Assembly (NCBI RefSeq): GCF_014836985.1
Contig: NZ_JACSPU010000002.1
Location: 434,001 to 498,000 of the forward strand
Direction: 5' to 3'
Source: Planococcus wigleyi
GTDB taxonomy: Bacteria > Bacillota > Bacilli > Bacillales_A > Planococcaceae
Length of the DNA stretch: 64,000 bases
In this document: one piece after another, positions 25,198 to 50,408 of the stretch
Layout: the number at the start of each line of letters is the position of its first letter
How positions within the stretch are numbered: position 1 is the stretch's first letter
Notes under the pieces: model-generated
Seen by the model: only the letters and a program-made list of their open reading frames with translations
Database searches by the model: none
What the model was told of the DNA's origin: nothing
Program-made: the position numbers and the translations under genes

Positions 25198-25250
25198 ATT
25201 GACACTCGCTGGGGATGCCTGTAACATAAAATTCAATTAAATAACTTAAA

Positions 25251-25405
25251 CTTATCAAGAGAGACTGAGGGACAGGCCCTGTGACGTCCGGCAACCCCCG
25301 ATTGGGAAGGTGCCAAATCCAACGGAACCCAATGTTCCGAAAGATAAGTCGAGAAACTAAATTTTTCGATGCTTCTTTCTTGATGAAAGAGGCATCTTCT
25401 TATTG
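25251..25405 (+). promoter_or_regulatory. SAM-I (S-box) riboswitch with terminator
   Basis: Aptamer about 25251-25348: P1 CTTATC...GATAAG, AGAGAGACTGAGGGAC, the conserved GTGACGTCCGGCAACC and GAAGGTGCCAAATCC blocks. The expression platform has the terminator GATGCTTCTTTC-TTGAT-GAAAGAGGCATC followed by TTCTTATT (25368-25409). Binding of SAM should stop transcription of metNIQ. Confidence 0.93.
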
Positions 25406-47613: not shown

Positions 47614-47937
47614 TTATCCGAAGTATAGGTGTTTATGCAAATTGCAGCCTGGATTGAATGGCGATGAACAGGAAGGGCAGGTTGAAGCGCAGGCTAGATA
47701 GTCTTCGACCGACAGTTCATGTCCGCACGTTCCGCATAGCACCGCCTTTTCATCGAAACGGTCTTTGGGCCAAACCTCATGCTTGCCGCAACCTTCCGCT
47801 TGATGGCATTCAAAGCAGGGAAAGTATTCCTGGCAGCAAAAAAACTTAATGGCAATCCGGTCGATTGGAGAATGATAATGCAAACAACGTGTTTCCGCAT
47901 CGACTTTAAGGCCTTTGACAATTTGGTGGTGGGCCAT
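47614..47937 (-). CDS. CHY zinc-finger protein
   Basis: 107 residues, a stand-alone CHY zinc finger: RCLHYHSPIDRIAIKFFCCQEYFPCFECH, GCGKHEVWPKDRFDE, LCGTCGHELSVEDYLAC and CPSC, about a dozen metal-ligand Cys/His. In eukaryotes this module is part of RCHY1 ubiquitin ligases; in bacteria it is a small protein of unknown role. ATG 47937 after AAGGATGG-type site. Monocistronic. Confidence 0.85.
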   Translation of the reverse strand: MAHHQIVKGLKVDAETRCLHYHSPIDRIAIKFFCCQEYFPCFECHQAEGCGKHEVWPKDRFDEKAVLCGTCGHELSVEDYLACASTCPSCSSPFNPGCNLHKHLYFG

Positions 47938-48151
47938 GTTAAAACCATCCTTTCTACAGCATGATTTGTTGGTGATAAGATTTCAGAAAACTATAGGTAG
48001 TTTGGGTTTTTTGAAACAATTTACCGATTGGTACCGGTGGAATATGGCATATGAAAAGCAAACTGCCCTGCTCCCAAAGGCCAATTTCTTATAACTTCTA
48101 TAGTTCAGTTTCTTTCTATGCTACTATGAAAAGGACGAAACTACGAATCTA

Positions 48152-48317
48152 ATTCTTCGGGGCAAGGTGAAATTCCTTACCGGCGGTGAGCAGGGAACTG
48201 CAAGTCCGTGACCCGGTTAAGCGAATGCAGGCATAGGCCACTATGTTTAAAGCGCTTAAGCGGTGGAGCTGGTGAAATTCCGGCACCGACAGTTACAGTC
48301 TGGATGGGAGAAGAATT
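48152..48317 (+). promoter_or_regulatory. FMN riboswitch (RFN element)
   Basis: ATTCTTCGGGGCAAGGTGAA, CCGGCGGTGAGCAGG, CGTGACCCGG, GGTGAAATTCCGGCACCGACAG, TACAGTCTGGATGGGAGAAGAAT: all conserved RFN blocks, with P1 ATTCTTC/GAAGAAT. It controls the rib genes downstream. The rest of 47938-48381 holds no gene; the expression platform (48318-48375) contains CAATCGTTTGAAATTG, which may form the sequestering helix. Confidence 0.93.
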
Positions 48318-48381
48318 CAGAGATCGGTTTCGTTATGTGCCTCTTCTTTTCAATCGTTTGAAATTGAAAGGAGGAATTTGT

Positions 48382-48654
48382 ATGACCAAAATACCTGAAC
48401 AGGGACCCGTCTCTGGAAATGCAACACACCGATCTTTAATGCTGCTCTTTTCCTCCGCGGAAACCGGGCTTTTTAAAGGTACCCAAAATTGTCGGGAAAC
48501 CGGCCAGCTTGTTAAAGAAGCAAGGCACATGCAAACAACCTTCAGCGCCATCCTTTCCTCACCACCCATACGCCCCATGGTGGAAAGCACCCAACTACTT
48601 GTACGAAAACGAATTAAATCTGCTCCGGCGACCGGAATGGAGGAGTGTGCCTAA
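48382..48654 (+). CDS. short ORF of unknown nature in the ribD position
   Basis: 90 codons from ATG 48382 (after AAAGGAGGAA) to TAA immediately before ribE. In Bacillales this place is held by ribD (about 360 codons). None of the RibD motifs is seen (no HAE zinc site, no PCxxxGxxPPC) in any frame. The first residues MTKIPEQ and the segment PIRPMVESTQLLVRKRI weakly recall the start of RibD and its PNPMVGAVLVKDG block, so it may be a decayed or internally deleted ribD, but that resemblance is slight. It may equally be leader sequence open by chance. Confidence 0.35.
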   Translation: MTKIPEQGPVSGNATHRSLMLLFSSAETGLFKGTQNCRETGQLVKEARHMQTTFSAILSSPPIRPMVESTQLLVRKRIKSAPATGMEECA

Positions 48655-49284
48655 ATGTTTACAGGTATAGTCGAAGAAGTCGGCCGCGTTGCGCAAGTCC
48701 GCGCAAAACCGCAGGCTATGGAACTGACGATTTCCTGTGTGCTGATTTTGGAGGACATGAAGCGTGGAGACAGTATTTCCATAGACGGAGTGTGTTTGAC
48801 TGTTTCTTCCTTCGATGCTCAAACGTTCACAGTCGATGTCATTCCAGAAACGGTCAAGTCTTCAACAATGAAGGAATTAAAAACAGGAGCGCGCGTAAAT
48901 CTCGAGCGTGCCATGCCAGCCACCGGCCGCTTTGGCGGCCATTTCGTCAGCGGCCATATCGATGGCGTCGGCGTGATCCGTTCAGTGAAGAAAGAAGCCA
49001 ATGCTGTCACCAAAACAATTGAACTCGATCCTCAGCTGATGAAATACATGATGCTGAAGGGTTCGATAGCAGTTGATGGGACTTCATTGACGATTTTTAA
49101 ACTTGGCCACAATACGGTTGCCATTTCCCTCATCCCGACCACACGGGAGGATTCGTTATTAGGCGAAAAAGGGATTGGCGATAAGGTCAATATTGAGTGT
49201 GATCTCTTGGCGAAGTATACCGAACGAGTTCAAACCGCAGAACCGAAAATCAGCAGAAGCTGGCTTGCGGAAAATGGATTTTAA
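48655..49284 (+). CDS. ribE: riboflavin synthase alpha subunit
   Basis: 209 residues, two homologous lumazine-binding barrels. [10 protein letters not shown], the first repeat with [23 protein letters not shown] between, and the second repeat AVDGTSLTI. It dismutates two 6,7-dimethyl-8-ribityllumazine to riboflavin and 5-amino-6-ribitylaminouracil. ATG directly follows the stop of the upstream ORF (TAAATG), with GGAGGAG at nine bases. Confidence 0.93.
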
Positions 49285-49298
49285 AGGGAGATGCTGAA

Positions 49299-49922
49299 AT
49301 GATGTTCTACACTGTAGAAAAAGCCGTCGAAGATTTAAAGGCTGGAAAAGCAGTTATTGTAATCGATGATGAAGACAGAGAAAACGAAGGCGATTTTATC
49401 GCATTGGCAGAGTTTGCTTCACCTGAGATTGTCAATTTGATGGCGACGGAAGGGCGAGGATTAATTTGTGTCCCGATTGCCGGTTCCATCGCACAGCGAT
49501 TGGAGTTTGGCATGATGACTGATCAAAATACAGATGAATTCGGCACCGCCTTCACCATCAGCATTGACCATAGAGATACAACCACGGGTATCAGCGCTTT
49601 TGAGCGTTCCCACACCATCACCAGCCTGATCAAGCAAGAAGCGAAGGCTGCAGACTTTAAACGTCCGGGCCATATTTTTCCATTGATTGCGAAAGATGGC
49701 GGCGTGCTTGAACGGGCAGGCCATACGGAAGCGGCTGTCGATTTGGCGAAGCTTGCGGGATCTGCTCCGGCAGGGGTCATCTGCGAAATCATGAACCCAG
49801 ACGGCACGATGGCCCGTGTGGATGATTTGGAGAAAGTGGCAGAGCGGCTCAACCTTGGGGTGTTGACAATCAAGGATTTGGTTGTGTATCAGCAGAAAAA
49901 CCAGCAGACAACAGCGTATTAA
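49299..49922 (+). CDS. ribB: 3,4-dihydroxy-2-butanone 4-phosphate synthase, monofunctional
   Basis: 207 residues with the RibB motifs [33 protein letters not shown] region, [29 protein letters not shown] and [10 protein letters not shown]. It makes the four-carbon unit from ribulose 5-phosphate. Bacillales normally have a fused RibBA of about 400 residues with a GTP cyclohydrolase II half; here the protein ends at [15 protein letters not shown], right at the interdomain linker, and ribH follows 21 bases later. So the RibA half is absent. Confidence 0.92.
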
Positions 49923-49943
49923 TTCAGTGGAGGAGATGGAAAA

Positions 49944-50408
49944 ATGACGGTTCATTTTGAAGGATATTTAAACGGTGAAGGGTTGCGGATCGGCATCGTG
50001 GTCGGCCGCTTTAATGAATTTATCACCAGCAAACTATTGAGCGGAGCAGAAGATGCGTTAAAACGCCATGGCGTTGGAGAAGACGACGTCTCGATCGCCT
50101 GGGTACCGGGAGCTTTTGAAATTCCCCTGGTCGCCAAAAAGATGGCGATGAGCGGAAACTATGATGCAGTCATCACATTAGGGACGGTCATTAGAGGGGC
50201 GACGCCTCATTTCGACTATGTCTGCAGCGAAGTGGCAAAAGGTGTATCTCGGGCCAGTGATCAAGCAAATATTCCGGTCATTTTCGGGGTTTTGACCACG
50301 GATTCAATTGAGCAGGCAATCGAACGTGCTGGCACAAAAGCCGGCAACAAAGGCTGGGAATCTGCAGCAGGCGCCATTGAAATGGCCAATCTTATGAAAA
50401 AATTATAA
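49944..50408 (+). CDS. ribH: 6,7-dimethyl-8-ribityllumazine synthase
   Basis: 154 residues, standard Rib[52 protein letters not shown] (catalytic His), and [26 protein letters not shown]. It joins the RibB product with 5-amino-6-ribitylaminouracil in an icosahedral capsid. Terminator follows. Confidence 0.93.

Follow-up and report, generated by a model that had tools for sequence, protein, structure and literature searches.

The riboflavin operon of Bacillus subtilis carries an FMN riboswitch, and Escherichia coli has separate RibA and RibB enzymes. The gene order in B. subtilis is described as ribDG-E-AB-H (PMC9048828). Regulation of riboflavin genes by Fur has been described in Clostridium acetobutylicum, Clostridioides difficile, Helicobacter pylori and Caulobacter (PMC6041382, PMC6311696), and phosphatases of the HAD family that act on the RibD product are described for B. 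subtilis, E. coli and Arabidopsis (PMC12051542).

The locus described here lies in a 64-kb stretch of DNA from Planococcus wigleyi (the window, positions 434001-498000 of contig C14; the genome that contains it is G000 in what follows). With B. subtilis it shares the FMN riboswitch and, in unchanged order, ribE, the RibB activity and ribH, and 13 of 46 relatives have the full form of the operon; it differs in that ribD is a remnant, the RibA half is gone and the GTP branch is encoded elsewhere, without an FMN riboswitch. As in E. coli, RibA and RibB are single-domain proteins (the best solved match of RibA is 2bz0), but RibA has here some 48 additional residues ahead of the aligned region (query residue 78 aligns to residue 30 of the 2bz0 chain), its gene overlaps ribD, and the operon of this lineage had a RibBA fusion. 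As in the Fur-regulated systems, a Fur-type box precedes riboflavin genes, and iron limitation would be expected to raise synthesis; whereas in those systems the rib operon or ribBA is iron-controlled, here the box stands on the GTP branch only, the other branch having the FMN riboswitch. Like the phosphatases of B. subtilis, E. coli and Arabidopsis, the third gene of the distant cluster belongs to the HAD superfamily and might be expected to catalyse the same reaction, but it is NT5C-like and forms one cluster with ribA and ribD. Neither a ribA-ribD-HAD cluster nor this split in Planococcus appeared in the titles or abstract openings searched in the literature.

The best explanation as a whole, to which we assign a probability of roughly 85%, would combine a split pathway, a decayed operonic ribD, an iron-linked cluster and a HAD phosphatase. 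Under control of the FMN riboswitch, the window operon would supply RibB for the ribulose-phosphate branch, and RibH and RibE for the final two steps, and the cluster on contig C15 would provide the GTP branch via RibA and RibD, the HAD protein most likely dephosphorylating the RibD product. The operon would descend from a normal ribD-E-BA-H; with the cluster covering the GTP branch, the operonic ribD would have decayed to a short open remnant, perhaps retained because it couples translation of ribE to the riboswitch, and RibBA would have lost its RibA half through a deletion. Iron limitation would probably raise the GTP branch, the other branch responding to FMN. Gene content, the split, the co-occurrence of the genes, the ribD remnant and the Fur-like box can be read directly from the DNA; functions, including FMN and iron control, the coupling and the phosphatase activity, are deduced from it. 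Rearrangements of this kind are known and, in this family, common. Three features make the present case more than routine: the losses can be followed step by step and have left a recognizable ribD remnant, control is probably divided between FMN and iron, and a phosphatase candidate has emerged.

The riboflavin operon of the window

The operon comprises the following features, in window positions.

48149-48319, + strand: aptamer of an FMN riboswitch (RFN element) whose variable arm is lengthened; RF00050, 108.4 bits (gathering score 66.2)
48342-48375, + strand: 13-pair hairpin holding the Shine-Dalgarno sequence of the leader ORF; minimum free energy -16.5 kcal/mol, z -2.79, conserved in a 12-genome alignment
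48382-48654, + strand: 90-codon leader ORF in probable ribD remains, its stop abutting the ribE ATG
48540-48593, + strand: surviving RibD motif at the nucleotide level, in a frame other than that of the ORF (LQRHPFLTTHTPHGGKHP); 33.9 bits to the L311 RibD
48655-49284, + strand: ribE, riboflavin synthase; TIGR00187, 235 bits; PF00677
49299-49922, + strand: ribB, RibA half absent; TIGR00506, 251.5 bits; PF00926
49944-50408, + strand: ribH, 6,7-dimethyl-8-ribityllumazine synthase; TIGR00114, 195.6 bits; PF00885
50415-50440, + strand: terminator-like hairpin 3' of ribH, 11 pairs and then a T run (five such sites in the region against 3.5 expected from shuffles)

The family models and RF00050 thus bear out the order first proposed for this operon, namely FMN riboswitch, 90-codon ORF, ribE, a RibB without its partner domain, and ribH. 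In the window RibB, which scores over the cut-offs of TIGR00506 and PF00926, the latter spans residues 7-197 of 207 and is complete; PF00925 (GTP cyclohydrolase II) is absent from this protein, which stops after residue 207 and is not a bifunctional RibBA. The proposal that RibB ends at the domain linker also agrees with the alignment to the RibBA of a relative (G004), where the RibA half begins 10 nt past the last aligned RibB residue; ribB and ribH are separated in the window by 21 nt. The aptamer spans 171 nt, against 131 nt in the clade that carries the other type of operon.

The GTP branch on another contig

The G000 genome (3.75 Mb, 21 contigs) has a single GTP cyclohydrolase II match, on contig C15, where genes for a single-domain RibA, a full RibD and a HAD/NT5C-like protein run in one direction at about 122.4-124.8 kb, with a ferritin gene divergent to them. 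Successive genes overlap at their ends, ribA (253 aa) with ribD and ribD with the HAD gene (190 aa); an overlap between the ribA stop and the aligned ribD start is common to all 34 genomes with the cluster. RibD matches TIGR00326 with 396.5 bits and contains both the deaminase (PF00383) and the reductase (PF01872) domain, and is thus bifunctional. RibA is over the cut-offs of NF001591 (196.6 bits; cut-off 148) and PF00925 (158.5 bits; 23.3) and under that of the equivalog-domain model TIGR00505 (186.3 against 205.85 bits). In a region that aligns to 2bz0, residues C102, C113, C115, Y136 and R177 are invariant in seven aligned sequences; we take the cysteines to be the zinc ligands, and Y136 and R177 to be the catalytic Tyr and Arg. 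An apparent RibD-HAD fusion in G021 and G026 was rejected, a stop codon lying between the two genes.

The 3.4 kb around ribA in G000 contain no riboswitch, and among the best 80 of 576 confirmed matches, a set that leans to close relatives, no FMN riboswitch stands beside ribA-ribD in the 16 scanned of the 60 loci from other genera. The two FMN riboswitches of G000 are those of the window operon and of an ECF S-component gene on contig C10, which we take to be RibU. The product of this gene is over the cut-off of PF12822 (117 bits) and under that of the riboflavin-specific PF07155 (22.9 against 26.7), and no NCBIfam model passes; because of these scores the name RibU is given as putative.

From this gene content, a complete riboflavin pathway split over two transcription units appears virtually certain. 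The original prediction, that ribA and ribD might lie elsewhere and the pathway be split in an unusual way, stands as regards the split; 'unusual' holds only in part, 32 of 79 genomes from other genera of the family having RibB alone. These 79 were examined for RibB among the 204 other-genus genomes of a 250-genome family sample: besides the 32 (open frames of 200-272 aa), 41 have RibBA (396-466 aa) and six gave no match. In 31 of the 32 the RibA match has an E-value between 1e-42 and 1e-47, the range of single-domain genes, the kind of gene being judged by this value. The split is thus common in the family, which comes close to what had been named in advance as speaking against the prediction, a common arrangement of this kind in sister strains. 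Two genomes from other genera show a RibA match without RibB (G122) and a partial RibB without RibA (G096); further half pathways or assembly gaps are possible explanations.

Distribution and history in the genus

Among 46 genomes of the Planococcus group, 21 have the ribE-B-H order of the window, as the comparison with sister species proposed for the locus brought out, 11 have ribE-BA-H without operonic ribD, 13 have ribD-E-BA-H, and one (G003) has no operon. The second class includes G012, whose contig ends inside RibBA, with part of ribH on another contig. The ribA-ribD pair is found in 34 of the 46, that is, in all 33 that lack operonic ribD and in G005, where pair and full operon occur together; in the other 12 genomes the full operon stands without the pair. 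Operonic ribD is thus missing only where the cluster exists (33/33). On a single contig of G003, 25 nt separate the sequences that would flank the operon, a precise loss of ribE-B-H; RibB and RibH were not found there, nor was ribE with a DNA query, and ribA, ribD and the HAD gene are all kept without stops. This strain should hence need external riboflavin. A single genus displays several stages of the split: some genomes have the full operon, some are without ribD, some are also without the RibA half, and in one it is the other half that has gone.

The rpoB tree implies loss of the RibA half in four clades, the RibE-RibB-RibH tree in two within the genus and one in a neighbouring genus; both are FastTree phylogenies, the rpoB tree being midpoint-rooted. 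The number of independent losses, two or four, depends on the tree, and the RibA half was lost at least twice in the genus. RibH of the full-operon clade is 66-68% identical to that of the window, compared with 91-99% among the rest, and the rpoB tree places this clade next to G033. We infer that the full-operon clade took over a foreign operon and lost its original ribA-ribD pair. The ribA-ribD pairs of 32 genomes form one clade (support 0.996), each beside ferritin; that of G005 and G018 groups elsewhere, without ferritin, and is, judging from the tree, of different origin.

The ribD remnant and the leader ORF

The nearest operons found outside the genus in the 79 genomes (L311 and L312; RibH 88-90% identical) have ribD directly ahead of ribE. 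In the genus, the RibD stretch PFLTTRLPHGGKNP and its neighbours are detectable at the nucleotide level between riboswitch and ribE. The motif reaches at least 25 bits in 24 of 31 ribD-less leaders and in none of 570 dinucleotide shuffles (best 21.6 bits); the 31 exclude G003, G018 and the 13 intact operons, and the shuffles were drawn from 19 of them. As the leaders are mutually related, these are not 24 independent events. The other seven are G002 (24.6 bits), G021 (24.3), G026 (21.2) and, without a match, G024, G025, G030 and G032. A distant operonic RibD as query gave only a faint relic signal (E 0.048 in G000); with RibD of the nearest intact operons, 7 of 18 ORFs gave E 0.001 or better, and the best shuffled ORF 0.65. 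Pieces of ribD are also present in the leader of G018, whose sisters keep that ribD whole, so that decay of ribD seems to be seen here afresh. It is very likely, on these alignments, that the 90-codon ORF occupies the remains of ribD.

The ORF is preceded by AAGGAGG and has no Pfam match. In the clade of G000 it is free of internal stops in 12 of 12 genomes, while the inner frame shifts from genome to genome; the other two frames hold 49 and 52 stops in total in the same genomes. Its stop abuts the ribE ATG in nine of the 12, and in three its frame continues into ribE. We rejected the ORF as a conserved gene because its amino-acid sequence is not kept, the conserved nucleotides falling in different frames in different genomes. 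The hairpin at 48342-48375 is predicted to be an FMN-controlled sequestor of the leader-ORF Shine-Dalgarno sequence, and translational coupling between the ORF and ribE is likewise probable. A leader ORF with a Shine-Dalgarno sequence and ending at ribE is present in 18 of 32 ribD-less operons and was not found in 14, and coupling is hence not general. Where present, the ORF is perhaps a remnant retained for riboswitch control and coupling to ribE.

The surviving ribD stretch (window 48553-48587, and the same place in relatives) can form a conserved RNA hairpin, CTTTCC..CACC/GGTGGAAAG, and few parts of the remnant are better preserved; it has possibly been taken over as an RNA element.

The Fur-like box and ferritin

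The Fur box consensus used is the 7-1-7 pattern. At least 12 of its 14 positions are matched within 300 nt upstream of ribA in 28 of the 34 cluster genomes, including all 22 that have the cluster as their only GTP branch; the six without the box are G005 and G018, which lack the ferritin gene, and the clade of G024, G025, G030 and G032. The box of G000, TGATAATAATTATTA, matches 13 of 14 positions and lies 105 nt before ribA (L001 2245-2259). In the same spacer, near the ferritin start, is a PerR-like site, TTAGAATTATTATAA (13/14; L001 2365-2379). The whole G000 genome has six sites with at most one mismatch, against none for the reversed-pattern control; two of the five others are beside siderophore-transport genes and three of the six near genes without an evident iron role, the genes being judged by eye. 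The 64 kb of the window contain no Fur-type site within two mismatches.

Among the best 80 of the 576 matches, 17 of 20 Planococcus/Planomicrobium loci have the box and none of the 60 from other genera does, the corresponding figures for a divergent ferritin gene being 20 of 20 and none of 60; one of these other-genus loci (L227) has a ferritin-like gene downstream. Because the shuffles for the Fur box preserve base composition only, the whole-genome scan and the contrast between genera weigh more. Together, the divergent ferritin and the Fur-like box suggest that the two branches are probably under different regulators, and iron control of the cluster seems reasonably likely, although the motif could instead serve another Fur-family regulator or the ferritin gene. 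Riboflavin genes under Fur or iron control have been described in other organisms (PMC6041382, PMC6311696), and the iron link itself is hence not new; the point of interest is the presence of a Fur-like box on one branch only. What follows when different signals (FMN and, probably, iron) are put in charge of the two branches of a single pathway could be studied here as a natural experiment.

The HAD/NT5C-like gene

HAD genes of at least 55% identity adjoin ribD in 34 of 34 cluster genomes, and the gene is absent from all 12 genomes without the cluster, two of which have only distant paralogues (about 23%). The protein belongs to the HAD superfamily (NT5C, 46.6 bits, cut-off 24.8; HAD_2, 24.4 bits, cut-off 23.8), no NCBIfam model is over cut-off, and sequence search gave no close solved structure, the best hit being an acid phosphatase (E 0.00097). 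The 60 loci from other genera among the best 80 of 576 matches divide into 43 with ribD and the HAD gene, five with ribD only, two with the HAD gene only and 10 with neither; of the 48 loci in this set with ribD, five thus have no HAD gene next to it. In the loci of Bacillus suaedaesalsae (L213) and Peribacillus kribbensis (L234), ribA is followed by the HAD gene with no ribD between them.

According to a 2025 paper, the known phosphatases of the RibD product are nonspecific HAD enzymes, and a dedicated phosphatase for the step after RibD had not been identified before the non-HAD result from Aquifex that it reports (PMC12051542). The strict association with the cluster (34/34 against 0/12) makes the HAD gene a strong candidate for this step, and we consider it rather probable that its product acts on the RibD product. 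The ribA-ribD-HAD cluster, found in many of the Bacillales loci examined, may provide a testable candidate for a phosphatase dedicated to riboflavin synthesis.

Alternative explanations

An assembly error might account for the absence of ribD and of the RibA half, the genome being a draft in 21 contigs; since 21 of the 46 genomes of the genus share the ribE-B-H order, two of them single-contig (G008, G038), we rejected this possibility, whose weight is practically nil. The original prediction had also considered a riboflavin auxotroph with leftover genes, or import of a pyrimidine intermediate. A putative RibU with an FMN riboswitch and a relative, G003, that has truly lost ribE-B-H would agree with such a state, but neither alternative is needed for a genome with complete RibA and RibD genes on another contig, and the operon type has been kept in 21 genomes. 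Auxotrophy was rejected on account of these genes, and both ideas appear extremely improbable. That the window operon never had ribD and arrived by transfer as a ribE-B-H unit is highly improbable too: the rpoB and operon trees do disagree in places, but a RibD remnant precedes ribE in the leader and the nearest operons found carry ribD.

The regulatory and enzymatic parts of the preferred reading leave more room for doubt. The Fur-like box might control ferritin, or be a chance match in an AT-rich spacer shared with that gene, ribA-ribD-HAD being constitutive; six of 34 clusters do without a box, and a consensus promoter scan found none on the ribA strand. We nevertheless think this unlikely, as the ferritin start has its own PerR-like site and the Fur-like box lies on the ribA side, is found wherever the cluster is the only GTP branch (22 genomes), and is absent from all 60 other-genus loci among the best 80 of 576 matches, none of which has a divergent ferritin. 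Equally doubtful, in our judgement, is an ordinary nucleotidase caught in the cluster by chance. NT5C, the best family match, comprises 5'-nucleotidases, some ribA-ribD loci have no HAD gene, and the HAD phosphatases reported for the step are described as nonspecific (PMC12051542); on the other side are the perfect co-occurrence with the cluster across 46 genomes and, within the best 80 of 576 matches, the tight spacing to ribD in most loci and the position beside ribA in two that lack ribD. It is tempting, but improbable, to see the cluster as an iron-starvation module whose 5-amino-6-ribitylaminouracil would be useful in itself beyond its role as flavin precursor, for example as a reductant of ferric iron, which would explain both the setting with ferritin and the Fur-like box and the retention of all three genes in G003.

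Other riboswitches and genes near the operon

In 13 of the 14 genomes of one clade (G001 (L105), G005, G014-G016, G018, G019, G028, G036 and G040-G043), the rib operon is preceded by a tandem pair of complete FMN riboswitches whose starts are about 240 nt from each other; in the fourteenth, G035, there is no more than a weak trace. For Bacillota, FMN riboswitches in tandem on ribE, ribB and ribH are already in the literature (PMC12452182). In the rib leaders of G007, G013, G021, G023 and G030 (for example L117), the FMN aptamer is present as two weak pieces, at most about 210 nt apart and below the gathering score, which represent either an aptamer with a very long variable arm or a decayed one. 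A SAM riboswitch (94.7 bits) lies at 25249-25350 of the window. Upstream of the operon, on the opposite strand, a 107-aa ORF (47614-47937, -) encodes a Cys/His-rich protein, presumably similar to the CHY zinc-finger proteins.
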